34,680 nucleotides of DNA from Candidatus Rokuibacteriota bacterium. GTDB lineage: Bacteria; Methylomirabilota; Methylomirabilia; Rokubacteriales; CSP1-6. Where the stretch lies: positions 1 to 34,680 of the forward strand of contig QHSZ01000055.1 of NCBI GenBank assembly GCA_003220595.1, read 5' to 3'. Numbering within the stretch: position 1 is the first letter of the stretch; every line of letters starts with the position of its first letter. The notes beneath the pieces were generated by a model, which was given only the letters and a program-made list of their open reading frames with translations, was not told the DNA's origin and made no database searches. Positions 1-17,395 of the stretch are shown here, piece after piece. Both the position numbers and the translations under genes were made by a program.

Positions 1-73
1 TGGCGACGAGCTCATAGATCGAGCCCGTGGCGAGTCCGCTGACGACCACGTGGACGAGCACGGCGGTTGTCAT
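1..73 (-). CDS. LivH-like branched-chain ABC transporter permease, N-terminal fragment
   Basis: Only the first 24 codons are inside the window; the gene continues off the left edge. The start ATG at 73 overlaps the stop of the preceding V4R gene (ATGA), so it belongs to the same operon. The visible peptide is hydrophobic and contains GLATGSIYELVA, which resembles the N-terminal helix of LivH-type permeases (usual form GLxxGSIYALxALG) of the branched-chain amino-acid ABC family. If that is right, the operon also carries uptake genes for an amino acid, urea or organic-acid-like substrate. The identification rests on a short motif and would be settled by the sequence to the left. Confidence 0.6.
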   Translation of the reverse strand, partial: MTTAVLVHVVVSGLATGSIYELVA

Positions 74-1646: not shown

Positions 1647-2836
1647 CGAATGGCGCCCGCGCGCCGGAGCTCGGCGAGCCGCGCGTCGGGATACTTGAGG
1701 ATCTCGCGCAGCACGAGGTCGGTGTGCTCGCCGAGGCGCGGGGGCGGCGAGACCGTCACCGTCATCGCGCCGTCCACCTTGACCGGCGTCCCGAGCGTGG
1801 GCAGGCGGCCGTGGACGGGGTGCTCCATCTCGACGACCATGCCGCGCCGCCGCACCTGCAGATCCTCGAGCACCCGATCGACGCTCTGGATCGGCGCCGC
1901 GGGCACGCCCTCGGCCTGGAGGCGCCGCAGCCACTCGGCCGTGGTCCGCGCGCGGAACTCGGCTTCGACGAGCGGCATCAGCATCTCGCGGTTGACGACG
2001 CGGTCGCGGTTCGTCAGGAAGCGCGGGTCGCGCTCCCACTGCGCGCGCCCGAGCGCGCGGCAGAACCCGCTCCAGAACTTCTCGACGAACACGGCGACGA
2101 TCAGGTGACCGTCGCGCGTCGCGAGTGCGCCGTAGGGCACGACGGAGGCGTGCGCCGAGCCGAGCGGCCCCGGCACGCGGCCGTCGGCCCAGAAGTATTG
2201 GGCGAGGTACGTGAGGAGCGAGACCTGGCAGTCGAGCAGCGACAGGTCGATGTGCGCGCCCTCGCCCGTCCGCTCGCGCCTCCACAGGGCGCCGGCGACG
2301 GCGAACGCGCCGAATACGCCGCCCGCGAGGTCCCCCATGGGGAGGCCCATGCGCACCGGCTCGCGGCCGGGCTCGCCAGTGAGCGACATCGCGCCCCCCA
2401 TGGCCTGGAGCGCGAGATCGAAGGCCGGCCAGTCGCGGTACGGCCCCTCCTGCCCGTACGCCGAGATCGAGCAGAGGACGACCCGCTGGTTCAGCGCCCA
2501 GAGCTTCGCGTAGCCGCAGCCGAGACGCTCCATGACGCCGGGGCGGAAGTTCTCGAGGACGACGTCCGCCCGGCGCACGAGGTCGTGGAACACCTCGCGT
2601 CCCGCCTCCTTCGTCAGGTCGATCGCGACCGATTTCTTGTTGCGGTTGATCGCGAGGAAGTACGCCGACTCGCCGTCGGGGAGGAACGGCGGGCCCATGC
2701 CCCGGATCGGATCGCCGCCGTCGGGCTCCTCGATCTTGATCACCTCGGCCCCCATGTCCGCGAGGAGCAGGGCGCCGTAGGGCCCGGCGAGCATTCGCGA
2801 GAGGTCGAGGACGCGAACGCCTTCGAGGAGCCTCAC
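1643..2836 (-). CDS. CaiB/BaiF family (class III) CoA-transferase
   Basis: A 397-residue class III CoA-transferase, which moves CoA from a donor thioester to a carboxylic acid. The start is the GTG at 2836, overlapping the stop of the molybdenum enzyme gene (GTGA); the protein then begins MRLLEGVRVLDLSRMLAGPY, the usual family N-terminus. The catalytic aspartate is in the motif MGLPMGDLAGG and falls at residue 169, the same number as in formyl-CoA transferase. The RNKKSVAIDL and LENFRPG motifs are also typical. The length is normal for the family. No acyl-CoA ligase is present in the operon, so this enzyme is the likely activation step for the acid produced by the pathway. The particular acid and donor are unknown. 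Confidence 0.92.
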   Translation of the reverse strand: MRLLEGVRVLDLSRMLAGPYGALLLADMGAEVIKIEEPDGGDPIRGMGPPFLPDGESAYFLAINRNKKSVAIDLTKEAGREVFHDLVRRADVVLENFRPGVMERLGCGYAKLWALNQRVVLCSISAYGQEGPYRDWPAFDLALQAMGGAMSLTGEPGREPVRMGLPMGDLAGGVFGAFAVAGALWRRERTGEGAHIDLSLLDCQVSLLTYLAQYFWADGRVPGPLGSAHASVVPYGALATRDGHLIVAVFVEKFWSGFCRALGRAQWERDPRFLTNRDRVVNREMLMPLVEAEFRARTTAEWLRRLQAEGVPAAPIQSVDRVLEDLQVRRRGMVVEMEHPVHGRLPTLGTPVKVDGAMTVTVSPPPRLGEHTDLVLREILKYPDARLAELRRAGAIR

Positions 2837-5106
2837 GCCCCTGGCCCCGCGAGCGCCGCGCGGACGCGCGCGGGCGTGATGGGGAGCTCCGTGAAGCGGA
2901 CCCCGATCGCGTGGTTCAGGGCGTTGGCCACGGCGGCCGCGACCGGGATGACGCCGGACTCGCCGAGCCCCTTGGCGCCGAACGGCCCCTCCTGGTCCAC
3001 GGTCTCGATCAGGCGCACGGCGATGTCGGGCATGTCGTCGGCCTTCAGGACCGCGTAGTCCATGAAGGACTGCGTGAGCACCTGGCCCCGCTCGACGACG
3101 AGCCGCTCGCTCAGCGCGTAGCCGAGCCCCATGTGGATCCCGCCGTGGATCTGTCCCTCGGCGGCGCCCGGGTTCAGTGCGCGCCCGACGTCGTGGGCGG
3201 AGACGAGCCTCCGGACCTCTACCTTGCCGGTCTCGGGGTCCACGTCGACGAGGGCCGCCTGGAAGGCCGACGTGTACGCGGCCGAGACGTTGCCCTGGAG
3301 GTCCTTGTCGAGCATGGCCGTCGGCGGGTCGTAGAAGGCCTCGGCGACGATCACGCGGCCGTGATGCGTGTAGTGCCCCGCGCGCGCGACCTCCTCGTAG
3401 CCGAGCCGGCGCGACGGGTTCGCCTTCACGAACACGACGCCGCGCTTGAGGTCGAGGGTCGCCGCGGGCTCGTCGAGCTCGGCCGCGGCCATCGCGAGGA
3501 GCTCGCCCTTTACCTTCTCGGCGGCGAGGCGCGCGGCGTTGCCCGCGACGAAGGTGGTCCGGCTCGCGTGGGTGCCCACGTCCCAGGGCCGGACGTTCGT
3601 GTCGGAGTTGACCACGTCGACGCGCTCGAGCGGCACGCCGAGCGTCTCCGCGACGATCATCGCCAGCACCGTCTCGGAGCCCTGGCCGATCTCCGACGCG
3701 CCCGTGATGAGCGTGACCTTGCCGAAGTCGTCGAGCTTGACGATGGCGCCGCAACCGTCCGAGCGGTAGATGCGCGCGCCCCCGCCGACGTGGAACATGC
3801 CCGCGTAGCCGATGCCGCGCGTCCAGCCGGGCCTCGGCGGCGGCACGTCGTGCCGGATCGCTGCGGCCGCCGCCTCGAGACACTCGGCCATCGCGAACGA
3901 GGTGAGCACGAACCCCTGCGGGTTCACGTCGCCCGCCTTCGATACGTTCCGCCGGCGCAGCTCGAGCCGGTCCATCCCGAGGCGCTCGGCCAGCTCGTCC
4001 ATCTGCGACTCCACGGCGAACGTGGACTCGGGGTTGCCGTAACCGCGCATCGAGCCCGAGTACGGGTTGTTGGTGTAGGCGATCGTCGTGTCGAAGCGGA
4101 CGTTCGGCACGCGGTAGAGGCCCGCGACGGTCGAGAGCATCACGTAGGGGGTCGTCGAGCCCCAGGAGGTGTAGGCGCCGTTGTCGATCGTGACGTGGGC
4201 GTCGCGCGCGAGCAGGCGCCCGTCGCGGTCCGCCGCGGTGCGCAGGCGAATCGTGCACGGCTCGCGGGTCGGGCACGCGATGAACTCCTCCACGCGGTCG
4301 AACTCGATCTTCACCGGCCGCCGGACGCGCCGGGCGAGGAGCGCCGCGATCACATCGATCGGGTAGAGGTCGAGGCCGCGGCCGAAGTTGCCGCCCACCG
4401 GCGGCTGCAGCACACGCACGCGGTCGCCCGTGATCCCGAGCGCCGCCGCGAGGTCGCGCTGATAGAGGAACGGGACCTGGGTCGTCGTCCACATCGTGAG
4501 GCCCTCGCCGCTCGCGTCCCACTCCGCGATCGCGACCATCGTCCCCAGGCACGCCGGCGTCACGAACGGCAGGCGATACGTATTCTCGACGACCGCCGCC
4601 GCCGCCGCGAACGCGCCGTCCACGTCGCCGTGGACGAACTGGTAGCGGAGCGCGTGCTGGTTGGTGCCGAGCTCCTCGTGGACCAGCGGGGCGCCCGGCG
4701 CGAGCGCCGCCGGGGGGTCGAAGACCGCCGGCAGCTCCGCGTACTCGACCTGGACGAGCTCGAGCGCCGCCTGGGCGATCTCGGGCGTCTCGGCGGCGAC
4801 CGCGGCGACCTCGTCGCGGATGCAGCGGACCTTGCCGCGCTTGAGCGCCGTCTGGTCCTTGGCGAAGCCGAACCCGATCGGCTCGACGTCGGCGCCGGTC
4901 AGGACGGCGAGCACGCCGGGCAGCGCCCGCGCCCGCGACGCGTCGACGCGCACGAGGCGCGCGTGCGGCACGCGCGCGCGGAGGATCCTCCCGTGGGCCA
5001 GACGCGGCAGCGCGAGGTCGTGGAGGTAGCGCGTGCGCCCCGTCGCCTTCTCGGCGCCGTCGCGCTTCTTGACGGTCTTGCCGATGACGTCGAACGTGTC
5101 GGGCAT
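2833..5106 (-). CDS. Xanthine dehydrogenase family, molybdopterin-binding large subunit
   Basis: A 757-residue molybdenum-cofactor subunit of the xanthine dehydrogenase/hydroxybenzoyl-CoA reductase family. Visible cofactor motifs are GGNFG (238-242), MRGYG (353-357), GQG (474-476) and the catalytic glutamate in KGLGESG (E716). The CO-dehydrogenase active-site cysteine loop (AYxCSFR) is absent, so it is not CoxL. It starts 2 bp after the mutase stop and overlaps the CoA-transferase start. Such enzymes hydroxylate or reduce a ring or acyl group and normally need an FAD subunit and a 2Fe-2S subunit. Neither is encoded beside it or elsewhere in this window, so partners must come from another locus or lie outside. 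The substrate is unknown. Confidence 0.88.
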   Translation of the reverse strand: MPDTFDVIGKTVKKRDGAEKATGRTRYLHDLALPRLAHGRILRARVPHARLVRVDASRARALPGVLAVLTGADVEPIGFGFAKDQTALKRGKVRCIRDEVAAVAAETPEIAQAALELVQVEYAELPAVFDPPAALAPGAPLVHEELGTNQHALRYQFVHGDVDGAFAAAAAVVENTYRLPFVTPACLGTMVAIAEWDASGEGLTMWTTTQVPFLYQRDLAAALGITGDRVRVLQPPVGGNFGRGLDLYPIDVIAALLARRVRRPVKIEFDRVEEFIACPTREPCTIRLRTAADRDGRLLARDAHVTIDNGAYTSWGSTTPYVMLSTVAGLYRVPNVRFDTTIAYTNNPYSGSMRGYGNPESTFAVESQMDELAERLGMDRLELRRRNVSKAGDVNPQGFVLTSFAMAECLEAAAAAIRHDVPPPRPGWTRGIGYAGMFHVGGGARIYRSDGCGAIVKLDDFGKVTLITGASEIGQGSETVLAMIVAETLGVPLERVDVVNSDTNVRPWDVGTHASRTTFVAGNAARLAAEKVKGELLAMAAAELDEPAATLDLKRGVVFVKANPSRRLGYEEVARAGHYTHHGRVIVAEAFYDPPTAMLDKDLQGNVSAAYTSAFQAALVDVDPETGKVEVRRLVSAHDVGRALNPGAAEGQIHGGIHMGLGYALSERLVVERGQVLTQSFMDYAVLKADDMPDIAVRLIETVDQEGPFGAKGLGESGVIPVAAAVANALNHAIGVRFTELPITPARVRAALAGPGA

Positions 5107-5108
5107 GC

Positions 5109-6704
5109 TCAGAACTTGACCGACTCCTTGTGCTCGCCGAACACGTCCTGCATGGCGCGCGCGATCTCGCCGAGCGTCGCGTAGGCCTGCACGCATTCCA
5201 TGATGGGCTCCATCAGGTTGCCCGCGCCGCGGGCCCCGTCCGACAGTCGGCGCAGCGCCGTCCGGGCCGTCTGGTCGTCCCGCTCGCGGCGGACCCGCGC
5301 GAGTCGCGCCAGCTGCGACTCGACCACCTTCGGGTCGAACGCGTACACCTCGACCTCGCGGTCCGCCTCGACCGGCCGGTCGCCGACGTGGCAGTTCGCC
5401 GCGACCTTCGGGATCTCGCCCGAGACGAGCTTGCGCTCGAACAGGTACGCCTGGCGGGCGACCTCCGCCTGGAGCGCGCCGCTCTTCACGGCCTCGACGA
5501 TCCCGCCCATCCGCTCGACCCGCGCCAGCTCGGCGAGGATCGTCGTCTCCATCTCGCCCGTGAGCGCCTCGACGTAGTAGGAGCCCGCGAGCGGGTCCAC
5601 CGTGTCGGCGGCGCCCGACTCCTCGGCACAGATCTGCATCGTCCGGAGCGCGAGGAGCTGCGCCTTGGCCGACGGGATCGTGTACGCCTCGTCGTATGTG
5701 GGCAGCGCGATCGTCTGCGCGCCCGACAGCGCCGCGGCCAGCGCGATGTAGGCGCCACGCACGATGTTGTTCTCCGGCTCCTGCATGACGAACGCCGAGC
5801 CGCCGCCGCCGATCAGGCTCCGGAACATCCACGACTTGGGGTTCCTCGCGCCGAAGCGCTCGCGCATCATGCGGGCATAGAGGCGCCGGCCGGCGCGGAA
5901 CTTCGCGACCTCCTCGAAGATCTTCCCCCACGCGGTGAAGTTGAACGAGAGGCGCGGCGCGAAGTCGTCCACGCTCATGCCTCGCGCGAGCATCAGCTCG
6001 ACGTAGGCGGCGGCGATGGCCAGGCCATAGGCCATCTCCTGAGCGGTCGTGCAGCCGGCCTCGCGGATGTGATAGCCGCACACCGAGACGGGGTTCGAGC
6101 GCGGGTAGCGCTTCGCCGAGAACTCGATGAGGTCGGCGACGAGCCGGAGCGACGGCTCGACCGGGTAGACCCACGTGCCGCGCGCGATGAACTCCTTGAG
6201 GATGTCGTTCTGCGGCGTGGTGACGACCCGGTCGGCCGCGGCGCCCTGCTGCGCGGCCACCGCGTAGTACATCGCCGTGATCGGCGCCGCCATGCCGTTG
6301 ATCGTGAGCGACACGCTCACGCGGTCGAGCGGGATGCCCGCGAACGCCTCTTCCATGTCCGCGAGCGAGTCGACCGCCATCCCGACGCGCCCGACCTCGC
6401 CCTCGGCGCGCGGGTCGTCGGAGTCGAGCCCGAGCTGCGTCGGCAGGTCGAACGCGACGTTGAGCGCGTCCTGACCGTGCGCCATCAGGTACTTGAAGCG
6501 CGCGTTGGTCTCGGCCGGCGTGCCGAAGCCAATGTACTGGCGCATCGTCCAGAGCCGCTCGCGGTACATGTGCGGGTGGATGCCGCGGGTGAACGGATAC
6601 TCGCCCGGCCGGCCGATGTCGCGCTCGACGTCCACGCCCGCCGCGTCCTCCGGCCCGTAGACCGGCTTGATCGGAAAGCCCGCGTGCGCTCGCAGCTCTT
6701 TCAT
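5109..6704 (-). CDS. Methylmalonyl-CoA mutase family, catalytic (large) subunit of a split B12 mutase
   Basis: A 531-residue adenosylcobalamin-dependent acyl-CoA mutase subunit with the substrate TIM barrel but no C-terminal B12 domain; B12 binding is supplied by the separate gene at 6814-7194. An ungapped alignment from memory to Propionibacterium MutB (offset 32) puts Y57 at Tyr89, Q165 at Gln197, R175 at Arg207 and H212 at His244. Tyr and Arg at the first and third positions are the methylmalonyl-CoA signature; isobutyryl-CoA mutase has Phe and Gln there. The start ATG has a strong AAGGAGG Shine-Dalgarno 4 bases upstream. It is separated from the small subunit by 109 bp of direct repeats. 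It probably converts methylmalonyl-CoA to succinyl-CoA or a close analogue. Confidence 0.9.
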   Translation of the reverse strand: MKELRAHAGFPIKPVYGPEDAAGVDVERDIGRPGEYPFTRGIHPHMYRERLWTMRQYIGFGTPAETNARFKYLMAHGQDALNVAFDLPTQLGLDSDDPRAEGEVGRVGMAVDSLADMEEAFAGIPLDRVSVSLTINGMAAPITAMYYAVAAQQGAAADRVVTTPQNDILKEFIARGTWVYPVEPSLRLVADLIEFSAKRYPRSNPVSVCGYHIREAGCTTAQEMAYGLAIAAAYVELMLARGMSVDDFAPRLSFNFTAWGKIFEEVAKFRAGRRLYARMMRERFGARNPKSWMFRSLIGGGGSAFVMQEPENNIVRGAYIALAAALSGAQTIALPTYDEAYTIPSAKAQLLALRTMQICAEESGAADTVDPLAGSYYVEALTGEMETTILAELARVERMGGIVEAVKSGALQAEVARQAYLFERKLVSGEIPKVAANCHVGDRPVEADREVEVYAFDPKVVESQLARLARVRRERDDQTARTALRRLSDGARGAGNLMEPIMECVQAYATLGEIARAMQDVFGEHKESVKF

Positions 6705-6715
6705 GAATCCTCCTT

Positions 6716-6809
6716 CGGATCGCTCGCCTCGCGACTCGCGGAGCCCAGCCCGCGGGAGTCGCTCAGCTCGCCCGGCGGATCGCTCGCCTCGCGACTCGCG
6801 GAGCCCAGC
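6716..6809. repeat. Pair of 34-bp direct repeats, 60-bp period
   Basis: Two identical 34-bp copies lie at 6716-6749 and 6776-6809, exactly 60 bp apart, and fill most of the 109-bp gap between the two mutase subunit genes. Each contains CGCTCGCCTCGCGACTCGCG and can form an imperfect hairpin. In one minus-strand frame each copy encodes AGLRESRGERS, but no start or conserved protein is associated. The Shine-Dalgarno of the downstream gene begins immediately after the last copy (minus-strand order). It looks like an intergenic repeat element inserted into an otherwise tightly packed operon. Confidence 0.85.
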
Positions 6810-6813
6810 TCTG

Positions 6814-7194
6814 TCAGAGGTCCTGCTTCGTAAATGCGTCGACGATCTCCGGCAGCGGCGTGCCCATCGGGAAGACGCGGGCGGCACCGAGCCTCCGCAG
6901 CTCGGCCACGTCGCGCGGCGGAATGATCCCGCCGACGACCACCTTGATGTCACCCGCCCCGTGAGCCCGGAGCCCCTCGACCACGCGCCGCGCGAGGAGC
7001 GCGTGGGCGCCCGAGAGGACCGAGAGCCCCACGACGTCCACGTCCTCCTGGATCGCCGCCTGCACGATCTCCTCGGGCGTGCGCTTGAGGCCGGAGTAGA
7101 CGACCTCGACGCCCGCGTCGCGCAGCGCGTGCGCGACCACCTTGGCGCCGCGGTCGTGGCCGTCGAGCCCGGGCTTGGCGATCAGCACCTTCAT
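6814..7194 (-). CDS. Cobalamin (B12)-binding subunit of acyl-CoA mutase
   Basis: A 126-residue B12-binding protein, the small partner of the mutase subunit at 5109-6704. The axial-ligand motif DGHDRG (D11, H13, G16) gives the DxHxxG signature. It is followed by the GLSVLSGAH and VVVGGIIPP segments that bind the nucleotide tail and corrin. The length is the usual 120-140 residues for split mutases such as isobutyryl-CoA mutase small subunit and archaeal methylmalonyl-CoA mutase. Its ATG overlaps the DUF35 stop (ATGA). No MeaB/ArgK-type G-protein chaperone gene accompanies the pair within this window. Confidence 0.93.
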
Positions 7195-7619
7195 ACCACC
7201 TCGAAGGCGGGGAGCCAGCGCGGGTTGCCCTTGGGATCGTCGGCGACGCGCAGCGGCGCGAGCCGCACGCGCTGGCCCACCCTCAGCGCCGCGGGCTCGG
7301 CCCCGGTGAGCACCGTGAACACGCGGTGCCCGTCGACCTTGACGATCGCGAAGACGCGCGGCGCCTCGAAGCCCGCGGGCAGCCCGGTCTCCTGCACCGT
7401 GAACGCGTGGACCGTGCCCTCGCTGGCCAGGTCCACCCAGTCGAACGCGGCCGCGCCGCACTCGGCGCAGAAGCCGCGCGGTGGCCACGCGCTCCGGCCA
7501 CACCCGCGGCACTTCGTCGTGGTGAGCGTGCCCGCGCCGAGGCGCGTGTAGAACTCGTGGAGCGTCGTGTGGTCGGCCGACTCGAGCGGGAACGGATCGA
7601 GCGCCCGGAAATAGGTCAT
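7191..7619 (-). CDS. DUF35-type Zn-ribbon/OB-fold acyl-CoA-associated protein
   Basis: A 142-residue protein with an N-terminal rubredoxin-like zinc ribbon (CxxC at CRGC and CxxC at CAEC, about residues 36-55) and a C-terminal OB fold with GTVHAFTVQ and FAIVKVDG strands. Proteins of this family bind acyl-CoA and act as obligate partners of SCP2-type thiolases, HMG-CoA synthase-like enzymes and the Ltp2 retro-aldolase. Two genes upstream in the same operon is an SCP2-type thiolase, its likely partner. Both ends overlap neighbours by 4 bp. The fold is clear; the partnership is inferred from gene order and family knowledge. Confidence 0.88.
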
Positions 7620-8569
7620 GCGCGCTCCCGCTTGAGCTGCCGGAGCAGCGCCCGGACCTTGGCCGTCTCGAACCGGTCGCGCGCGTCGCCCGAGTAGTCG
7701 AAGAAGCCGCGCCCGGTCTTGGGGCCGAGCTCGTTCCGCGCGATCTTCTCCTCGACGAGCCGCGCCGGCTTGAAGCGCGCGTCCCCGAGCGCCTCCGCGA
7801 GGAACCGGCTCGCGCGATGGAGGATGTCCACGCCGCCCCAGTCGATGAACTCGAAGATGCCGACCTGTGCGTAGCGGAACCCCATCCCCGCCTTGAACGC
7901 GCGGTCGACGTCCTCGGGCGACGCGACGCCCTCCTCGACGAGGCGCACGGCCTCGTTCATGAGCAGCGCCTGCATCCGCGGGCCGATGAACCCCGGCGAG
8001 TCGCCGCACCGGACCGGGACCTTGCCGAGCCGCTCGAGGAGCGTCAGCGTTCGCGTGACGACGTCCTCCGACGTCCTGGCGCTCGGCACCACCTCGACGA
8101 GCGGGATGATGTGCGCCGGGTTGAGCCAGTGGGCGACCAGGAAGCGCTCGGGGCGCTCGACGGCGTCCACCAGGTGCGCGGGCGAGATCGTCGAGCTCGT
8201 GGAGGCCAGGATCGCGTCGGGCGCGAGCCGCCCCGCGAGGCGCCGGAAGACGTCCCGCTTGAGGTCGAGGAGCTCGGGCAGCGCCTCCTGGACGAAGTCG
8301 CACGGGGCGAGCCCGTCGAGCCCCGTCCGGTCCTCGATGCTCCGGAGCGCGGCCGCGCCCGCGCCGTCGCCGAGCACGCCTTCCTCCGCCATCAGCGCGA
8401 GGTCGCGCGCGATCTCGCGCCGGGCGTCGGTGAACAGCGCGGCCCGCTCGACGCCGGCGCGCTCCTTCACGTCGACGAGCAGCGTCGGGTGGCCCCCGAG
8501 CGCGAAGGCGAGCGCGATCTGGCGCCCGATCCGCCCGGCGCCGAGGACCGCCACCGCTCGCACGGCCAT
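7616..8569 (-). CDS. 3-hydroxyacyl-CoA dehydrogenase family protein
   Basis: A 317-residue NAD-dependent dehydrogenase. The N-terminal Rossmann motif is GAGRIG (G10, G12, G15), followed by an acidic residue at the end of strand 2 (LLVDV), indicating NAD preference. The centre has ASTSSTISP and the catalytic-His segment [17 protein letters not shown], and the C-terminus carries the helical 3HCDH domain ending [13 protein letters not shown]. The AHWLNP form is closer to the lambda-crystallin/L-gulonate dehydrogenase branch than to FadB-type enzymes (HFFNP), so the hydroxy substrate may be short or non-acyl-CoA. The start shares one base with the thiolase stop (TGATG). It would oxidise the product of the MaoC hydratase. 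Confidence 0.87.
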
Positions 8570-9738
8570 CACGCCGGTTCCTTGCCGTAGATCATCACGA
8601 CGTGCTCGCCCATGCCGCTGTTGTTGTGGGTGAGCGCGAGGGCGGCCGCGGGGACCTGGCGCGCGCCCGCCTCGCCGCGGAGCTGGACGAAGACCTCGGC
8701 CGCCTGGGCGACGCCCGTCGCGCCGAGCGGGTGGCCGCACCCGATGAGACCGCCGCGCGGGTTCACGACGACGTCGCCGCCGTAGTCGCTCCGGCCCTCG
8801 GCGACGAACGGCCCGGCCTCGCCCTTGTGGCAGAAGCCCAGCTCCTCGTACGCGATCAGCTCGGCGATCGAGAAGCAGTCGTGGACCTCGGCCAGGTCGA
8901 TCTCGTGCGGCCCGACGGCGGCCATCTGGTACGCGGCCTGCGCCGCGCGCTTGAGCGCGGGCCAGTGCGCGTAGTCCTCGTGGAGCGAGCTGAGCTGGAA
9001 GCCGTCGAGCGCCTGGCCGGTCCCGCGGATCCACACGGGCGTGTCGGTGAGCGCGCGCGCCCGGGTCTCCGACGCGAGGACGACGGCCGCCGCGCCGTCG
9101 GTGATCGGCGAGCACATGAACAGGCGCAGCGGCGACGCGATCATCCGCGAGCCGAGGACCTGGTCGAGCGTGGCCCCCTTGGTGAAGTGCGCGCTCGGGT
9201 TCTTGGCGGCGTGGGTGTGGTTCTTCACGCCCACCATCGCGAGCTGCTCCTCGGTCGTGCCGTACTCCGCCATGTGCCGCTGGGCGGCGAACGCGAAGCA
9301 GGGCGGCGCCGTGAGACCGAACGCGGCCTCCCACTCGCGGTCCACGCCCGTCCCCATGTTGAGGACGGCCTCGTCGGCCACCGGCTGGTTGAGCTTCTCC
9401 ACGCCGAGCACCATGACGAGGTCGGCGAGCCCGGCCGCGATGAACGCGTACGCGTAGCGGATGCCGACGGTGCCCGAGGCGCACATGTGCTCGGTGCGCG
9501 CGCTGAGCGCGCTCGGCCGGATCCCGAGCGCCTCGGCGACCATCGAGGAGATGTGCGACTGAAAGGCCGTGCGTTCGGGCATGACGGAGCCGACGACCAG
9601 CCCGTCGAGGTCTTTGGGCTTCACGCCGGGGACGGAGTCGAAGCACGCCTTGCCCGCCTCCCAGACGAGGTCGCGGTAGGTCGCCTTCCGCACGCCGAAC
9701 TTGGACACCCCGGCGCCGACCAGCGCGACTCTTCTCAT
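8569..9738 (-). CDS. SCP2-type thiolase (acetyl-CoA acetyltransferase family)
   Basis: A 389-residue thiolase of the lipid-transfer/SCP-x branch. The nucleophile segment EHMCASG places a cysteine at residue 86. The HDCFS motif and the C-terminal NPRGGLIGCGHPLGATG, with its catalytic His, are present. Because the Cys is kept, thiolytic cleavage is possible; the Cys-less Ltp2 relatives are aldolases. This branch usually works with a DUF35 protein, which is encoded two genes downstream. The ATG at 9738 overlaps the MaoC stop (ATGA). It is proposed as the carbon-carbon cleavage step of the operon's beta-oxidation-like sequence. Confidence 0.9.
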   Translation of the reverse strand: MRRVALVGAGVSKFGVRKATYRDLVWEAGKACFDSVPGVKPKDLDGLVVGSVMPERTAFQSHISSMVAEALGIRPSALSARTEHMCASGTVGIRYAYAFIAAGLADLVMVLGVEKLNQPVADEAVLNMGTGVDREWEAAFGLTAPPCFAFAAQRHMAEYGTTEEQLAMVGVKNHTHAAKNPSAHFTKGATLDQVLGSRMIASPLRLFMCSPITDGAAAVVLASETRARALTDTPVWIRGTGQALDGFQLSSLHEDYAHWPALKRAAQAAYQMAAVGPHEIDLAEVHDCFSIAELIAYEELGFCHKGEAGPFVAEGRSDYGGDVVVNPRGGLIGCGHPLGATGVAQAAEVFVQLRGEAGARQVPAAALALTHNNSGMGEHVVMIYGKEPA

Positions 9739-10208
9739 GCCGTCACTCCTTTGCCCGTGGGCCGCTTCCGCATGAGCACGCTCTCCTCGTAGGTGCACAC
9801 GGCCTCGCCGTGCTGGTTCTTCACCGTCACGTCGAAGGTCACGACGCCGCGGTCGGGCTTCGACGACTCGCGGCACGCCTTCACGGTCATCTCCGTGTGG
9901 ACGGTGTCACCGAACTTCACGGGCGTCGTGAACCGCACCCGGTCGAGCCCGAGGAGGGCCAGCGTCGTGCCCTCGAACCAGCCCCCGAGGTTCTGCTGGC
10001 CGTTCGACACCGCGAGCGTCAGGATCCCGTGCGCGACGCGCGCGCCGAACGGCGTCGTCTTCGCGAACTCCGCGTCGGTGTGCAGCGGGTTGAAGTCGCC
10101 CGTGAGCCCGGCGAATCGCGAGACGTCGCCGCCGTCCACCGTGCGCCGCCCGCTCACGAGCGCCTCGCCGACCTTGAAGTCTTCCCAGTAGCGTCCACGC
10201 GCCTGCAT
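9735..10208 (-). CDS. MaoC-like enoyl-CoA hydratase
   Basis: A 157-residue single-hotdog R-specific hydratase. The hydratase-2 motif is visible as GDFNPLHTD with D38, N40 and H43 as catalytic and binding residues, followed by FGARVAHGIL, the usual oxyanion segment. The ATG at 10208 was chosen because a GGAGG lies 4 bases upstream; a longer in-frame start at 10259 would overlap the dehydrogenase gene. It begins 31 bp after the acyl-CoA dehydrogenase stop and overlaps the thiolase start. It would hydrate the enoyl-CoA made by that dehydrogenase. Confidence 0.9.
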   Translation of the reverse strand: MQARGRYWEDFKVGEALVSGRRTVDGGDVSRFAGLTGDFNPLHTDAEFAKTTPFGARVAHGILTLAVSNGQQNLGGWFEGTTLALLGLDRVRFTTPVKFGDTVHTEMTVKACRESSKPDRGVVTFDVTVKNQHGEAVCTYEESVLMRKRPTGKGVTA

Positions 10209-10239
10209 CGGCCCTCCATCATATTTGCCGTCGGGGAGG

Positions 10240-11406
10240 TCAACCCGCTCCGAACGCATCGCCGCGGTCCCAGTCGAGGTCGTGGCCGATCACCACGCGC
10301 AGGATCTCCGACGTCCCTCCGCCCGGCAGCAGGAAGCGCGCGTCGCGGAAGTAGCGCTGGATCGGGTACTCCATCGCGAGGCCGTAGGAGGCGAAGATGC
10401 GCGCGGCCTCGTCCGTCACGCGCACGGCCATCTCGGAGGCGAAGAGCTTCGCCATCGCGGCTTCCCGCGCGAGCGGCAGCCCCGCGTCGAGCCGCCCCGC
10501 GGCCTGGTAGGTCATGAGCGTCGCCGCGTGGAGCTGCGTGAGCATGTCGGCGAGCTTGAAGCCGATCGCCTGGTGCTCGACGATCGGCTTGCCGAACGCC
10601 TGGCGCTCACGGGCGTAGGCGAGCGCCGCCTGGTACGCGGCGCGCGCCAGGCCGACGGAGATCGCCGCGGTCATCACACGGATCTCCGAGAGGATGGACC
10701 CGATCTTCTCGGCCCCGCCGGTCTCACCCCCGAGGAGGTGCTCGGCGGGAACCTCGACGTCGGCGAGCAGGATCTCGCCGGTCACGGAGGCGCGCACCGA
10801 CATCTTCTCGATCGAGCGACCGAGCGTGATGCCGCGCATCGTCACACGGTCCAGGAGGAAGAGCGCGATGTTCTGCATCCCGCGCTCGCCCGAGGTCTTC
10901 GCGGCCACCGTCAGCACGTCGGCGACCGGGGCATTGGTCACCCAGGTCTTCCCGCCGCGGAGGACCCAGTGGTCGCCGCGCCGCTCGGCGCGCGTGGTGA
11001 TGCCCGCGACGTCGGAGCCGGCGTTCGGCTCGGTGAGCGCGAACGTCGCGATCAGCTCGCCGCGGAGCGCGGGCACGAGGTACTTCTGGCGGAGCGCCTC
11101 CGAGCCGTACTTGTAGATGAAGTGGGTGCCCATCAGGGACTGCATCGCCGCCGCGGCCGCGACCGAGAGCGAACCGCGGGCCAGCTCCTCGGCGAAGAGG
11201 CAGTAGGTCACCATGTCGGCGTCGGCGCCGCCGTAGGCCTCCGGGTAGCGGAGGCCGAGATAGCCGAGCTCGCCGATCCGCCTGAAGAGCTTCGCCGGGA
11301 ACTCCGCCCGCTCGTCGATCCCCTCGGCCGCCGGGGCGACCTCGACGTCGACGAACCGCGCGACGGCCTGACGGAACCGCTCCTGCTCCGGCGTGAAGCG
11401 GATCAT
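10240..11406 (-). CDS. Acyl-CoA dehydrogenase (operon copy)
   Basis: A 388-residue FAD-dependent acyl-CoA dehydrogenase with the three family domains. FAD and substrate motifs include ATFALTEPNAGSDVAG and GGKTWVTNAPVAD. The C-terminal base segment, which reads YEGTxxIQR in most members, is PGGGTSEILR here, so the MCAD-type catalytic Glu is Gly. LCAD and isovaleryl-CoA dehydrogenase also lack it and use a Glu about 120 residues earlier; a Glu (SEIRVM) lies near that place but does not align exactly. Branched or unusual acyl substrates are therefore plausible. The ATG overlaps the hyuB stop. Compare the second copy at 16238-17395, which keeps the usual Glu. Confidence 0.9.
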   Translation of the reverse strand: MIRFTPEQERFRQAVARFVDVEVAPAAEGIDERAEFPAKLFRRIGELGYLGLRYPEAYGGADADMVTYCLFAEELARGSLSVAAAAAMQSLMGTHFIYKYGSEALRQKYLVPALRGELIATFALTEPNAGSDVAGITTRAERRGDHWVLRGGKTWVTNAPVADVLTVAAKTSGERGMQNIALFLLDRVTMRGITLGRSIEKMSVRASVTGEILLADVEVPAEHLLGGETGGAEKIGSILSEIRVMTAAISVGLARAAYQAALAYARERQAFGKPIVEHQAIGFKLADMLTQLHAATLMTYQAAGRLDAGLPLAREAAMAKLFASEMAVRVTDEAARIFASYGLAMEYPIQRYFRDARFLLPGGGTSEILRVVIGHDLDWDRGDAFGAG

Positions 11407-13133
11407 CGGCGCATCTTCTTCCGCAGCTCGTTCGTGGCCGGCCCGTCGACCCGGAGGTCGACGCCGCCGCCCGCGATCACCACCCCGTACTCGCTCCGCG
11501 CGGTCTCGATCGACACATAATCGTCCAGCACGTCCTCGAGCACACGGCCGGGCTCGCGCTCGAGCGGGTCGCCGTAGCCACCCGCGCCCGCCTGCTGGAA
11601 CGAGATGACGTCGCCGTAGGCGAACTCGCGCGACGCCTTCCCGTGCACGACCTGTTCGCCCGGTCCCGGATTGAGCACCGTCCGGCCGAGCCCGCCCGGC
11701 TTGCCGCCGAACAGCCCGTAGGGCGGGAATGTCTGGCGGTCCGAGAGATTCGTCAGCTGGCCCTCGTCGACGAGAAAGCGCATGTCGCGCCGGATGCCGC
11801 AGCCGCCGCGGAACTTCCCCGCGCCGGCGGAGTCGCGGAGCAGCTCGAACCGCTCGACGACGATCGGCTGGTTCGCCTCCTGCGCCTCCACCGGGATGTT
11901 CGCGGCGTTGAACGCCCACGCCATCGCCTCGCAGCCGTCCTTGGTCGCGCGCGCGCCCGTGCCGGAGAGCACCAGCTCGTAGGCGACGCAGCGGCGCTGC
12001 CTCGCGCGGTCCCAGCCGCCGAAGGTCGGGTTCGCCATGTGCGAGGCCGCCGCCGCGACGCGGGCGGGCACGGCCTTGGCCAGGGCACCGATGACCGACT
12101 CGAACGTCCGATAGCAGATGATCGCGCGCGGCCCCCCGCCCGCCGGCGGCCGCGGGTTCAGGAACGAGCCCTCGGGCGCTCTCACCACGATCGGTCGCAG
12201 CGCGCCCTCGTTCATCGGCCCGAACGGGTCCGTCAGGCACTTCACCGCCGCGTACGAGTACGAGCGCGTGTAGTTGATGTAGGAGTTCATCCCCGACGCG
12301 GTCTGCGGGCTCGAGCCCTCGTAGTCGATGACCATGGAGTCGTGGGCGACGGTCACGGTGACGGCCACGCGCAGGGGCTCGGTGCCCGGCCCGTAGTCGT
12401 CCAGGAAGTCCTCGAAGGTGTAGACACCGGGCGGGAACTTGGCGATCGCCCGCCGCATGTTCGCTTCCGTGCGCGCCATGATCTCCTCGGTCGCCTGCAC
12501 GAGAACATCACGGCCGTAGCGCGCCGCGAGCTCCTGGAGCCGGCGCTCGCCCACGCGGAGCGCGCTCCGCTGCGCCCGCAGATCACCGAGGACTTTCTCC
12601 GGCGTCCGCGTGTTGGCCGCGATGATCCCGACGATGCCGGGCTCCTCCTCGTACTCCCGCCAGACCTTGGTCGGCGGGATGCGGAGGCCCTCCTGGAAGT
12701 AGTCGAAGATGCCCTCCACGCCCTGGCTACCCGGGCGCTGTCCGCCGACGTCGGTGTGGTGGAGGATGTTGACGGCGAAGCCGACGAGCGCGCCCTCGTG
12801 GAACACGGGCTGCGTGACGAAGAAATCGGGGAGATGGCCGGAGCCGAGCAGCGGGTCGTTCAGCAAGATCGCGTCGCCCGGCCGGAGCGTCTCGACGGGA
12901 TGCGCCGTGAGCGCGTTCTTCACGGCGAACGACATCGCGCCCATGTGGCCCGGGGAGTAAGGCCCCTGCGCCACCATGCGCCCCTTCGCGTCGAAGACCG
13001 CGACGGAGAAGTCCTGCCCCTCGCGCGCCTGCTCGGAGTACGCCGTCTTGTGGACGGTCGTGCCGATCTCGACCGCGATGGACTGGAGCGCGCCCCAGAT
13101 GACGCCGAGGGTGATCGGGTCGACTCGGCTCAT
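11403..13133 (-). CDS. hyuB: Hydantoinase B/oxoprolinase family subunit
   Basis: A 576-residue HyuB-type subunit, beginning MSRVDPITLGVIWGALQSI, the standard family N-terminus. Conserved segments include FSVAVFDAKGRMVAQG, GDAILLNDPLLGSGHLPD and a C-terminal glycine-rich GAGGYGDP. With HyuA it forms ATP-dependent amidohydrolases (N-methylhydantoinase, 5-oxoprolinase, caprolactamase) or, in related complexes, acetone-type carboxylases. The length fits the family. The ATG at 13133 overlaps the stop of a repeat-encoded mini-ORF that itself chains back to hyuA. The substrate cannot be read, but the downstream acyl-CoA genes favour a lactam or cyclic imide whose opened product becomes a CoA ester. 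Confidence 0.92.
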   Translation of the reverse strand: MSRVDPITLGVIWGALQSIAVEIGTTVHKTAYSEQAREGQDFSVAVFDAKGRMVAQGPYSPGHMGAMSFAVKNALTAHPVETLRPGDAILLNDPLLGSGHLPDFFVTQPVFHEGALVGFAVNILHHTDVGGQRPGSQGVEGIFDYFQEGLRIPPTKVWREYEEEPGIVGIIAANTRTPEKVLGDLRAQRSALRVGERRLQELAARYGRDVLVQATEEIMARTEANMRRAIAKFPPGVYTFEDFLDDYGPGTEPLRVAVTVTVAHDSMVIDYEGSSPQTASGMNSYINYTRSYSYAAVKCLTDPFGPMNEGALRPIVVRAPEGSFLNPRPPAGGGPRAIICYRTFESVIGALAKAVPARVAAAASHMANPTFGGWDRARQRRCVAYELVLSGTGARATKDGCEAMAWAFNAANIPVEAQEANQPIVVERFELLRDSAGAGKFRGGCGIRRDMRFLVDEGQLTNLSDRQTFPPYGLFGGKPGGLGRTVLNPGPGEQVVHGKASREFAYGDVISFQQAGAGGYGDPLEREPGRVLEDVLDDYVSIETARSEYGVVIAGGGVDLRVDGPATNELRKKMRR

Positions 13134-13237
13134 CTGTCGACGTGGGGGGCCCCGACATGGCCCCCCACACCCCCCCACGCTCGGCGCGCCCCGGGGAACC
13201 CGTGGCGCTCCTCGACGACCCGCGCGTGGCTTCTCAT
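13130..13237 (-). CDS. Repeat-encoded mini-ORF 2 (35 residues)
   Basis: A 35-codon frame inside the second tandem unit (minus-strand order), starting MRSHARVVEERHGF and ending GGHVGAPHVDR. Its ATG overlaps the stop of mini-ORF 1, and its TGA overlaps the hyuB ATG, so a ribosome leaving hyuA could pass through it to hyuB. The peptide is rich in Gly, Arg and His, has no recognised family, and is probably a by-product of the repeat rather than a selected protein. Its value may lie in keeping translation coupled. Confidence 0.35.
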   Translation of the reverse strand: MRSHARVVEERHGFPGARRAWGGVGGHVGAPHVDR

Positions 13238-13376
13238 CGGTCGACGTGGGGGGCCCCGACATGGCCCCCCACACCCCCCCACGCTCGGCGCGCCCCGGGG
13301 AACCCGTGGCGCTCCTCGACGACCCGCGCGTGGCTTCTCATCGGTCGACGTGGGGGGCCCCGACATGGCCCCCCAC
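13136..13376. repeat. 104-bp tandem repeat between hyuA and hyuB (two full copies plus a 33-bp partial)
   Basis: Identical units start at 13136 and 13240. A third, partial copy (13344-13376) forms the 3' end of hyuA. Each unit begins GTCGACGTGG and contains a perfect 10-bp stem with a 7-base loop (GTGGGGGGCC / GGCCCCCCAC) at 13142-13168, 13246-13272 and 13350-13376. The partial copy ends exactly at the end of the hairpin. Each full unit also spans a mini-ORF whose ATGA junctions chain hyuA to hyuB. There are no unique spacers, so this is not a CRISPR array. Confidence 0.95.
13234..13341 (-). CDS. Repeat-encoded mini-ORF 1 (35 residues)
   Basis: The first repeat-encoded frame after hyuA, giving the same 35-residue peptide as mini-ORF 2. 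Its ATG overlaps the hyuA stop (ATGA at 13338-13341). The last eleven residues equal the last eleven residues of HyuA, because both are read from copies of the same repeat. No Shine-Dalgarno is evident, so expression would depend on re-initiation after hyuA. Function unknown; it may be only a translated linker. Confidence 0.35.
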   Translation of the reverse strand: MRSHARVVEERHGFPGARRAWGGVGGHVGAPHVDR

Positions 13377-15431
13377 CTCTACGATCAGGCTCGCGTAGTC
13401 GTCCACGGTGGCGGCCGCGCCCGGCGGCAGCACGGTCGTCGACTCGCGCTCCTCGACGATCGCCGGCCCCTCGACGCGCGTGCCCGCGGCGAGCGCGTAC
13501 CGGTCCCAGACCGGCGTCTCCGTCCAGCCGCGCGTCTCGGGGAACCAGGCGCGCCGCGAGCCCTTGCGCGCGCCGTCCCCGCCCCGCGGCGCGGCCTTGG
13601 CGAGCGCGATCCGGGGCGAGCCGCCGATCGCCGAGAGCGTCCAGGTGACGATCTCCACGGGCTCCCGCGGGCTCGCGTAGCCGTAGCGCGCGGCGTAGAC
13701 CTCGTCGAAACCGGCGCGGACCTTCCCGAGCGCCGCGGCGTCGAGCGCTCCCGCCGGCACGGGCACGGTCAGCTCGTAGCCCTGGCCGACGTAGCGGGCG
13801 TCGGCCGAGCGCGTCAGCGTGACCTCGCCGGCGACCGCGGACTCGCGGACGACCTCGAGCGCCTGAGCCGCCATCTCGTCGTACATCGCGGTGAGCCCAG
13901 CGGGCTCCACGGTGTCGAGCCTCCGCACGTACGTCCGCGCGACGTCGAACCGGACCTCGGCGGCGAGCAGGCCGATCGCGGCCGTGACCCCGGCCGCCGC
14001 CGGCAGGATCACGCGGGGGATCCCGAGGGCCTGGGCGAGGCGGCAGCCGTGCACGGGGCCCGAGCCCCCGAACGCGACGAAGGTGAGGTCGCGCGGATCG
14101 CGCCCGCGCTCGATGGAGACGACGCGCGTCGCGAGCTCCATGTTCGTGTTGACGATCGCGTGGACGCCCCAGGCCGCCTCCTCGAGGGTGAGCCCGAGGG
14201 GGCGTGCGAGCGTCTCCGCGATCGCCCGCGCCGCGGCGGCCGCCTGGAGCTTGATCGACCCGCCGGCGAAGTAGTCGGGGTTGATGTAGCCGAGGACGAC
14301 GTTGGCGTCGGTCACGGTCGGCGCCGTGCCGCCGCGCCCGTAGCAGACCGGACCGGGCGTGGAGGAGGCGCTCTCCGGCCCGACGGCGATCACGCCGAGC
14401 GTCGCCCGGGCGATCGAGCCGCCGCCCGCGCCGATCTCGACGAGGTCGAGCGCCTGGATGTTCATCGGGAGCCCGCTGCCCGGCGCGTTGTTCACCCGGT
14501 GGAGCTCGAAGGCCGTCGTCGTGTACGGCCGCCCCTTCTCGATGAGCGCGAGCTTGGCCGTCGTCCCGCCCATGTCGAACGCGATGAGGTCGCGGTGGCC
14601 GGTGAGCTCGCCGTAGACGGCCGCCATCAGGGCGCCAGCCGCCGGGCCCGACTCGATCATGCGCACCGGGTAACGCTGCATCGCCTCCGCCGTCGCGACC
14701 CCGCCCGAGGACTGCATGACGAAGAGCCGGCCGCGATAGCCGCGCTCACCCATGGCGGCCGCGAGGCCGCGCAGGTACTCGCGGATCGCCGTCATGACGT
14801 AGGCGTTCACCACGGTCGTCGAGGTGCGCTCGTACTCGCGGAAGGTCGGCGAGACCTCGTGCGACATCGTCACCGTCACGTGCGGCGCCTCCCGGGAGAC
14901 CAGCGCCGCCAGGCGCTTCTCGTGGACCGGGTTCAGGTAGGCGTGCAGGAGGCAGATCGCCAGCGTCGTCACGCCGCGGGCGACGAGCTCGCGGATCGCG
15001 CGGCACGCGTCGGCTTCGTCGAGCGGGGTCCGCACGGCGCCGTCCGCCAGGATGCGCTCGGTGACCTCGCCGATGAAGCGGCGCGGGATCAGCGGCGCGG
15101 GTTTCTCGATCTGGAGGTCGTAGACCTGGTAGCGCTTCTCGCGCCCGATGATGAGCACGTCGCGGAAGCCGCGTGTGGTGAGGAGCCCGACGCCCCTCGC
15201 CTTGCGTTCGATGACGACGTTCGAGCCCAGGGTCGTCCCGTGGACCGCCTGGGCGACGTCGCGCCAGCCGACGCCGCCGCGCGCGACGAGCTCGTCGAGG
15301 CCGGCCAGGCACGCCGCGGACGGGTCCGGGTAGGTCGTCAGCCGCTTCGCGGTGAGCAGCTCCCCCGACGGCGATTGTAGGACCAAATCGGTAAACGTCC
15401 CCCCGACGTCGAACCCGATGCGGTACGCCAA
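13338..15431 (-). CDS. hyuA: Hydantoinase A/oxoprolinase family subunit (ATP-binding)
   Basis: A 697-residue HyuA subunit with an actin-like ATPase fold: phosphate-1 motif GFDVGGTFTDL (residues 6-16) and a second loop FDMGGTTAKLALI near the middle. It phosphorylates the amide during ATP-dependent ring opening together with HyuB. The start is a TTG at 15431, three bases after the gntR stop; no ATG or GTG precedes the conserved motif. The last residues (GGHVGAPHVDR) come from the tandem repeat and are not a family feature. Upstream lies the GntR gene and downstream the repeat-bridged hyuB. A carboxylase-type role is an alternative, but no third carboxylase subunit is present. Confidence 0.92.
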   Translation of the reverse strand: MAYRIGFDVGGTFTDLVLQSPSGELLTAKRLTTYPDPSAACLAGLDELVARGGVGWRDVAQAVHGTTLGSNVVIERKARGVGLLTTRGFRDVLIIGREKRYQVYDLQIEKPAPLIPRRFIGEVTERILADGAVRTPLDEADACRAIRELVARGVTTLAICLLHAYLNPVHEKRLAALVSREAPHVTVTMSHEVSPTFREYERTSTTVVNAYVMTAIREYLRGLAAAMGERGYRGRLFVMQSSGGVATAEAMQRYPVRMIESGPAAGALMAAVYGELTGHRDLIAFDMGGTTAKLALIEKGRPYTTTAFELHRVNNAPGSGLPMNIQALDLVEIGAGGGSIARATLGVIAVGPESASSTPGPVCYGRGGTAPTVTDANVVLGYINPDYFAGGSIKLQAAAAARAIAETLARPLGLTLEEAAWGVHAIVNTNMELATRVVSIERGRDPRDLTFVAFGGSGPVHGCRLAQALGIPRVILPAAAGVTAAIGLLAAEVRFDVARTYVRRLDTVEPAGLTAMYDEMAAQALEVVRESAVAGEVTLTRSADARYVGQGYELTVPVPAGALDAAALGKVRAGFDEVYAARYGYASPREPVEIVTWTLSAIGGSPRIALAKAAPRGGDGARKGSRRAWFPETRGWTETPVWDRYALAAGTRVEGPAIVEERESTTVLPPGAAATVDDYASLIVEVGGHVGAPHVDR

Positions 15432-15434
15432 GGG

Positions 15435-16160
15435 TCAGGTCCGCCGGTCGGCGCGGGAGAGGACCAGGCGATAGGGGTAGCGCCGTCCCGTTTGGTACGT
15501 GATCGCGTACTCGACGGGCTCGCCGCTGGCGGCGAAGTAAGTGCGCTCGAAGAGGAGCAACGGCGAGCGCGGGCGCAGCTGGAGCAGCTCGGCGATCTGC
15601 CGCGGCGCGAGCACCGCGTCCACGACCTGCTCCATGAGCTTGATCGGCACGCCGAGCACCCGCTCGATCGCGCCGATCAGTGAGGTCTTGGAGAGGTCCT
15701 CGTCGGAGAGCGCCGTGCCGATCGTCAGCGGCACGTACGCGGTCACGTGCTGGAAGGGCCCGTTGTCGGCGTGCCGGACGCCGCTGATGCGATAGACCGA
15801 CGAGCGGGCCGGAAGCCGGAGCGCCTGGGCGATGTTGGCGGGCACGGGCACGATCTCGCGCCCGACGAGCTTGAACCACGTCTCGTCGCCGAGCGCCATC
15901 ATGTCGCCGACGGAGCCGATCACGCGGAGCTTGCGGTCGGTCGCGCCCGACGGCGTCGAGAAGGTGCCGCGCCCCGCGTGGCGGTAGAGGAGCCCCTCCT
16001 CCACCAGCACGTCGAGCGCCTGCCGGATGGTCGGGCGGCTCACCGCGAACTGCTTGCAGAGCGCGTGCTCGGAGGGGATGCGCTCGCCGTCGCCGCGCAG
16101 GCCGTGACGGATCGCGTCGGCGATCTGGAGGTACCGCGGAATCCCGGGACGGTAGTTCAC
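15435..16160 (-). CDS. GntR family transcriptional regulator (HutC/UTRA type)
   Basis: A 241-residue regulator. The N-terminus has a winged helix-turn-helix (about residues 8-70) with the GntR signature IPSEHALCKQFAVSRPTIRQAL and a GRGTF wing. The rest (about 90-235) is a UTRA effector domain ending in FERTYFAASGEPVEY. The GTG at 16160 was chosen because GGGAGG precedes it by 9 bases; a longer GTG start at 16196 has no ribosome site and would bury the operator in coding sequence. It lies directly ahead of hyuA and probably represses itself and the operon, released by a pathway compound. Effector unknown. Confidence 0.88.
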   Translation of the reverse strand: MNYRPGIPRYLQIADAIRHGLRGDGERIPSEHALCKQFAVSRPTIRQALDVLVEEGLLYRHAGRGTFSTPSGATDRKLRVIGSVGDMMALGDETWFKLVGREIVPVPANIAQALRLPARSSVYRISGVRHADNGPFQHVTAYVPLTIGTALSDEDLSKTSLIGAIERVLGVPIKLMEQVVDAVLAPRQIAELLQLRPRSPLLLFERTYFAASGEPVEYAITYQTGRRYPYRLVLSRADRRT

Positions 16161-16185
16161 GCCGATGGGCCTCCCGCTGTCAGGA

Positions 16186-16195
16186 TGTCTAGACA
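16186..16195. promoter_or_regulatory. Candidate GntR/HutC operator palindrome
   Basis: A perfect 10-bp palindrome, TGTCTAGACA, centred about 30 bp upstream of the chosen gntR start. Its core GT-C-TA-G-AC matches the GTnTAnAC consensus reported for HutC-subfamily operators. A minus-strand TTGACG (16217-16222) could be the -35 element, which would put the palindrome over the -10/+1 region, a good position for autorepression of gntR and the downstream operon. The -10 hexamer is not clear. Confidence 0.6.
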
Positions 16196-16237
16196 CCTAT
16201 CATTCTGGCCGGGGGCCGTCAATGGCTGAAATCGCGG

Positions 16238-17395
16238 CTAGGCCCGTAGGAGCTCGCGCGCGACGACGACGCGCTGGATCTGGTTGGTGCCCTCGTAGAT
16301 CTGGGTGACCTTCGCGTCGCGCATGAAGCGCTCGACCGGATACTCGCGCGTGTACCCGTAGCCGCCGAAGACCTGGACGGCGTCGGTCGCCACCTTCATC
16401 GCGGCGTCGGCCGCGAAGCACTTGGCGAGCGACGCCTCGAGCGCGCCCCGCGGCGCGCCCTGGTCCAGGAGCGCCGCCGCGTGGTGGACCATGAGCCGGG
16501 CGCCGTGCACATGCATCGCCATGTCGGCGAGCATGAACTGGACGCCCTGGAAGGCGGCGATCGCCTGGCCGAACTGCTGCCGCGTCTTCGCGTAGGCGAC
16601 CGCGGCGTCGAGGGCGGCCTGGGCGATGCCGACGGCCTGCGCGCCCACCGCGGGCCGTGAGCCGTCGAGGGCGCGGAGCGCGAGCCGGAAGCCCTCGCCC
16701 TCCGCGCCCAGGCGGTTCTCGACGGGCACCTCGCAGTCGGTCAGGTGGATCGCCACGGTCGGCGAGCCACGGATCCCGAGCTTTCGCTCGAGCTTGCCCA
16801 CGGCGAAGCCGGGGAACCCGGGCTCGACGAGGAATGCGGTCACGCCGTGCTTGCCGCGGCCGCGGTCCACGGTGGCGAAGAGCGTGAGGACGCCCGCGTG
16901 GCTCCCGTTCGTCACCCACATCTTGGTGCCGTTCAGGAGGTAGCGGTCGCCGCGACGGACGGCCGTCGTCGACAGGGACGCGACGTCCGAGCCGGCGCCG
17001 GGCTCGGAGACCGAGAACGCGGCCGTGATCTCGCCCGAGGCCAGGCGCGGCAGGTAGTGCCGCTTCTGCGCCTCGGTGCCGGCGGCCACGATGGGGAACC
17101 CGCCGGCGTACTGGACGAGATAGAGGACCCCGGTGGACGCGCACGCCCAGGCGATCTCCTCCACGGCGAGGCAGAAGGCGAGCGCGCCCATCTCCGAGCC
17201 GCCGAAGGCCTCGGGGATGTAGAGCCCCATGAGCCCCTGCTCGCCCAGGAGCCGCAGCTGGTCGGCGGGATACGCCTCCGTCTCGTCCACCTCGGCGGCC
17301 CGCGGCGCGATCCGCGCGCGCGCGAGCGTGCGCACGAGGTCGCGCATCCGCCGCTGCTCGTCGGTGAGCGAGAAGAGGTCACGCATCGGCGGCAT
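16238..17395 (-). CDS. Acyl-CoA dehydrogenase (upstream copy)
   Basis: A 385-residue acyl-CoA dehydrogenase of the short/medium-chain type. Motifs include [18 protein letters not shown] and [14 protein letters not shown] for FAD and substrate binding, GLRDxP-like KLGIRGSP, and the C-terminal [11 protein letters not shown] with the catalytic Glu intact. The start ATG at 17395 has GAGGG a few bases upstream; a second ATG at 17386 is possible. It is co-directional with gntR, but 77 bp containing the operator separate them, so it may be its own transcript or the first gene of the operon. It faces the exported amidase gene across a 61-bp divergent gap in which no clear promoter is seen. Confidence 0.92.

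Follow-up and report, generated by a model that had tools for sequence, protein, structure and literature searches.

Mycobacterial interspersed repetitive units (MIRUs), which also occur as tandem copies, have to our knowledge no obvious dyad symmetry. PMC12548453 describes them, after Supply et al. (1997), as apparently mobile and inserting at start codons, with an internal open reading frame coupled at -4 nt, and their insertion was proposed to be nearly harmless. REP elements are distributed mostly between unidirectional and convergent genes (PMC3733652), and in the literature searched we found neither a coupling relay described for them nor an account of repeats in Rokubacteria. Termination-reinitiation at overlapping genes has been measured in E. 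coli and Haloferax (PMC6728339), and both RNA-unfolding and scanning models of translational coupling are available (PMC12548453). The repeat family described here is REP-like in structure and placement and MIRU-like in behaviour.

The window, which is the whole stretch of 34,680 nucleotides that was analyzed, contains a tandem array at 13129-13376. TRF reported it with a period of 104, 2.4 copies, 99% matches and a score of 489, while the two other tandem repeats in the window score just 51 and 66. The features at this junction are as follows:

13338..15431, minus strand: hyuA, hydantoinase/oxoprolinase A subunit (Pfam PF05378, PF01968, PF19278)
13338..13376, minus strand: partial copy with the hairpin-B half of the unit, encoding the hyuA C-terminus GGHVGAPHVDR followed by the stop (BLAST, sequence)
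13238..13341, minus strand: repeat unit 1, 104 bp, the full copy nearer hyuA (TRF, BLAST, covariance-model match 13247-13319)
13234..13341, minus strand: predicted relay mini-ORF 1, 35 codons, its ATG overlapping the hyuA stop and its stop the next ATG
13134..13237, minus strand: repeat unit 2, 104 bp, the full copy nearer hyuB, one base unlike unit 1 (TRF, BLAST, covariance-model match 13143-13215)
13130..13237, minus strand: predicted relay mini-ORF 2, 35 codons, its stop overlapping the hyuB ATG (ATGA)
11403..13133, minus strand: hyuB, hydantoinase/oxoprolinase B subunit (Pfam PF02538)

On the minus strand the stop codon of hyuA lies in the ATGA at 13341-13338, that of mini-ORF 1 in the ATGA at 13237-13234 and that of mini-ORF 2 in the ATGA at 13133-13130, which is the hyuB start. 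The chain by ATGA therefore leads from hyuA through mini-ORF 1 and mini-ORF 2 to hyuB, and the original prediction of a 104-bp array between both genes with ATGA-chained 35-codon mini-ORFs is confirmed by TRF and by the coordinates. Two details had to be corrected. The units had been called identical but are only nearly so, as a single mismatch is located close to the hyuB-proximal end (CGACCG vs CGACAG), and the partial copy in the hyuA 3' end, given as 33 bp, extends over about 39 bp according to BLAST (13338-13376). The GGHVGAPHVDR tail encoded by this partial copy is missing in the HyuA relatives compared. As the units are short and near-identical and the genome is a draft in 380 contigs, the true unit number at this locus might differ from the assembled one, but we regard an assembly artefact as improbable in view of the one-base difference between the units, the partial third copy and the arrays with diverged units in other genomes (L038, L040, L172, L426). 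The minus strand of the window carries a long same-strand gene run with many 4-bp overlaps (69-17395), which includes a GntR/UTRA regulator, hyuA, hyuB, an acyl-CoA dehydrogenase and a 3-hydroxyacyl-CoA dehydrogenase.

The array had been described as a tandem repeat, and it had been missed that its unit recurs throughout this genome and the family. A BLAST search with the array as query gave many strong matches on other contigs of its own genome, and a covariance model built from 36 copies identified 40 copies there at E<=0.1. Using the same model, the repeat was detected in 35 of 80 genomes of the class, 34 of them from the same family and one from another family of the order, and several other genomes contain at least 61 copies each. 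When named genomes were scanned for the exact pattern, the matches listed were Candidatus Rokubacteria records and one small contig (L322) of a MAG named Acidobacteria AA35, which is probably a misbinned Rokubacteria contig. The unit is a member of a dispersed, mobile-looking family of two-hairpin repeats of about 75-100 bp and no locus-specific tandem repeat. The sense consensus TCGAGGAGCGCCACGGGTTnCCCGGGGCGCTCCGAGCGTTGGGGGGTGTGGGGGGCCATGTCGGGGCCCCCCA consists of hairpin A, a G-rich linker and hairpin B. In the alignment of the copies 94.8% of the cells are paired, and pairing is preserved by double changes (30 cells versus 5.8 in shuffles); judging from the alignment, the CGAG..CGAG framing hairpin A could form tandem G-A pairs. 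No curated Rfam family matched the repeat; the one hit, at chance level with 13.9 bits (gathering 48), lies outside the array. Among viral contigs, phages and plasmids no repeat match was found in any. The hairpin-B end is fused to another tandemly repeated hairpin (GATCGAGCCCC..GGCTCGATC) in L027 (G000:C20) and L055 (G004:C15), which makes the repeat look modular. Furthermore, a second repeat, GCGCGCCTGGCTCAGGCCACCCACGGTGCACGCCGGCCTCGCGGACCCCGCTACAA, adjoins copies in the flanks of the own genome (L014, L016, L018, L019, L020, L029, L032), and two of these loci, L029 and L032, look like chimeras in which the main repeat's left arm is joined to GCGCGCCTGGCTCAGGCCACCCACGGTGCACGCCGGCCTCGCGGACCCCGCTACAA.

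To place the copies relative to genes, we called genes with a home-made script for codon usage that had been trained on the retrieved loci. Of 253 arrays, 144 fall in co-directional gene pairs, 71 in convergent and 8 in divergent ones, compared with 704, 127 and 110 for every gene pair of the loci. The copies sit at gene 3' ends and seldom between divergent genes, and this distribution (144/71/8) is like that of REP elements. Most arrays consist of a single unit, and 27 contain 2 to 4 units. Some copies lie inside called genes (L210, L193, L203, L224, L189, L233). As in REP, BIME and REPIN, short palindromic repeats are present in numerous copies that stand alone or in tandem, and often touch coding regions (PMC3733652, PMC3116915), so that the REP/BIME trait of a multi-copy short palindromic extragenic repeat is present. 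In contrast to these elements, which have a single REP or a pair in inverted orientation, the Rokubacteria unit consists of two different hairpins. By inspection, an unpaired GTAG or CGTC tag at one end does not seem to be constant; hairpin B is followed by ACGTC in several own-genome copies and by ATGTT, ATTTCC or ACGACG in others. The family also differs from GTAG REPs in the absence of the RAYT transposase from this genome and from most of the copy-rich genomes. As PF01797 (Y1_Tnp) had no match in G000, G016, G018, G050, G014 and most of the copy-rich genomes, RAYT was rejected as mobiliser.

Within co-directional pairs 77 copies are in sense and 67 in antisense orientation, and an orientation bias as the sign of a one-strand RNA function was rejected. 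The strong hairpins and the REP-like location at gene 3' ends would also suit a partial terminator, an mRNA stabiliser or an attenuator, as proposed for REP, with the open frames at this locus being incidental. Such a function on its own seems rather unlikely to us, as it leaves the exact phase at RTGA sites (see below) unexplained and is not accompanied by an orientation bias in co-directional pairs, but it could act jointly with a translational relay. At convergent sites, e.g. L228, L229 and L239, a copy often has CTAG at both sides, that is a shared TAG/CTA stop, and this doubled CTAG is a counterpart of the doubled RTGA found with co-directional genes.

In a genome of the same genus (G001), hyuA and hyuB overlap directly in an ATGA, with no repeat in between, which indicates that the stop-start overlap of both genes is ancestral. 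At the other orthologous hyuA-hyuB junctions the repeat was absent wherever the gene ends were readable. Two further empty sites were identified, L374 in comparison with a copy in G000:C280 and L381 in comparison with L172. In both cases just one RTGA overlap is present in the related genome, and in the occupied counterpart RTGA flanks both sides. The single RTGA in the empty sites implies that the overlap is ancestral and is present at both sides after the insertion. As far as these two sequence comparisons go, L374 and L381 are consistent with the duplicated RTGA being a target-site duplication.

For the analysis of the reading frame we measured D, the distance between the upstream stop, counted from its end, and the downstream start. 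With RTGA at both sites, a mini-ORF starting in the upstream one reaches its stop in the downstream one only when D = 1 mod 3. We read the starts from the sequence instead of relying on the gene caller and counted orthologous loci once, which gave 52 independent single-copy loci. An exact relay or chain is present in 47 of these 52 RTGA-RTGA loci, where one third would be expected (p=1.4e-17). D ranges from 64 to 157 and is nearly always 1 mod 3. As exceptions we noted loci with 90, 95, 104 and 104, one chain with D = 93 and a TGATGA site with D = 97, whose contact point is the next RTGA. In L418 and L501, where D = 2 mod 3, the upstream RTGA could be the start of the downstream gene, which would then have the repeat as N-terminal extension. 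When the spacers were clustered in order to discount related copies, 17 of 18 clusters at 80% identity were in phase, and so were 10 of 11 at 75%; one cluster contains many copies. The controls showed no strong bias, neither insertions between convergent genes (phases 9/9/7) nor co-directional insertions with other upstream stops (7/11/4). The six RTGA-bounded tandem arrays all contain an unbroken chain. The array in the window (35+35 codons) and L040 (35+46+33) are chained by resets, and L038 (152), L047 (68), L172 (65) and L426 (114) are open straight through as one ORF. Resetting of the frame at each ATGA, as in the original prediction, therefore applies to the window and to L040 but is just one route, as the other four arrays are read straight through. 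In five further loci the upstream gene continues through the repeat to the downstream ATGA, likewise hyuA with its partial copy.

Hairpin B occupies the three frames in 45, 7 and 3 relays, and a few relays are antisense. As the relay frames differ between copies, it is the phase that is kept and not the peptide, and peptide conservation was ruled out as the cause of the phase. The mini-ORF peptide is thus probably not the selected product. A functional small protein, MxxxVEERHGFPGALRALGGVGGHVGAPHVDR, would be in line with the frame common to 41 of 56 relays, but the remaining relays are in other frames or on the other strand and most repeat copies are not located between coupled genes, so that we consider this highly improbable. 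Alternatively, a subfamily with RTGA ends and a length of 3n+1 would provide coupling automatically and without selection at each site. Right ends such as ACGACGATCGATGA are recurrent in one genome, and hairpin B is in one frame in 45 of 55 relays. On the other hand, there are at least 15 distinct spacer lengths, all 1 mod 3, the spacers are unlike in sequence, antisense copies fit too and the lengths at convergent sites are scattered over every phase. We therefore judge a built-in phase to be unlikely, but part of the phase could be inherited from a subfamily that already bears RTGA ends.

Behind sense copies at RTGA sites, an SD-like motif was found at 3 of 62 starts, compared with 71 of 218 (33%) plain 4-bp overlaps and 14% of random positions. 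Inspection of the start context revealed no SD-like motif before the hyuB ATG, which in the window lies about 10 nt downstream of the end of a 10-bp hairpin. Because of the missing motif and the hairpin, fresh initiation at the hyuB start looks poor. We consider it likely that the array is a tandem insertion of the dispersed repeat in an ancestral ATGA, that its mini-ORFs relay translation from hyuA to hyuB and that selection keeps the phase. The repeat would have entered the ancestral 4-bp hyuA/hyuB overlap, with ATGA then flanking each unit. Ribosomes ending hyuA would re-initiate on mini-ORF 1, next on mini-ORF 2 and next on hyuB, and on leaving one ORF a ribosome would open the hairpin that lies about 10 nt ahead of the following start. 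We infer the translation of the mini-ORFs from sequence, and a restart with hairpin opening agrees with the measurements (PMC6728339) and the models (PMC12548453) mentioned above. Any insertion or change in length that interrupts the relay would be lost by selection, as the downstream gene would otherwise be poorly translated, and the repeat would persist within operons because it is translationally transparent. Translation thus probably remains connected across the operon in spite of the insertion. Continued coupling of hyuB through re-initiation at each ATGA had already been predicted, and the 47 of 52 loci, the six of six chained arrays and the downstream starts without SD motif support this part.

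The same open-frame footprint would be left by a translated spacer if selection acted primarily on ribosome cover of the ~100-nt insert against transcription termination by Rho and exact re-initiation at ATGA were secondary, and a link between coupling and polarity in operons is known (PMC12548453). However, protection from polarity needs no exact ATGA contact, as a stop tens of bases before the start would suffice, whereas 47 of 52 loci stop exactly in the downstream RTGA and SD motifs are absent. Hence, we see some chance for this explanation, but not a good one. The relay reading can be extended to a REP-like mobile repeat of an uncultured phylum that converged on the MIRU strategy and made an adjustable relay out of a direct stop-start coupling. 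Each unit would contribute one SD-less re-initiation behind a strong hairpin, and with more units downstream synthesis would drop step by step, which would set the subunit ratio; this is a speculative and rather doubtful proposal. The originally suggested tuning of the HyuA:HyuB ratio and ongoing copy-number change are conjectures, with one genome of this species covered by the analysis.

Compared by description, the MIRU is the closest known system and appears to work alike. The Rokubacteria repeat is likewise short, dispersed, intergenic and single or in tandem, its ORF ends overlap the flanking stop and start (ATGA/DTGA, -4 nt) in 47 of 52 single-copy RTGA loci and in six of six arrays, and it inserts into stop-start overlaps (empty sites L374 and L381, and L057 for hyu). 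It differs from MIRUs in belonging to a different phylum, in its two strong conserved hairpins, in its location also between convergent genes and in both orientations, and in relay ORFs that use several frames. Many copies are found outside RTGA-RTGA sites. Its placement, with convergent sites and both orientations, sets the repeat apart, and we do not assign it to the MIRUs. Rickettsia palindromic elements (RPEs) are also palindromic insertions that are tolerated since the reading frame is kept (PMC3733652, PMC10969869), but RPEs lie in frame within genes, whereas the Rokubacteria repeat lies between genes and joins stop to start. As in termination-reinitiation at overlapping genes, the ATGA overlap would serve as coupling device (PMC6728339), here chained several times; natural pairs touch directly, whereas in this case units with mini-ORFs intervene.

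About 50 natural insertions in different operons nearly all keep the relay frame, while the peptide is not conserved. This retention is comparative evidence for selection on stop-start coupling itself in bacteria that cannot yet be grown, and the relay can be tested by a simple reporter series. Furthermore, a MIRU-like life inside operons seems to exist beyond the mycobacteria, led by a REP-like repeat with a different structure. Among 21 RTGA-bounded gaps that lack the element, 16 are relays; this set is biased by start calling, as the start caller drops cases with D = 2 mod 3, and includes some gaps with other repeats. As these gaps are mostly relays too, the behaviour may be general for anything put into a coupled junction and hence not unique to this repeat. 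A third repeat, CCCGACCGTCGGGCGCCGGAGCCCTGCGCAGGCGCCCCGACGGCAA, is located between RTGA stop and start at L125, L166, L236 and L330, mostly with a relay frame.
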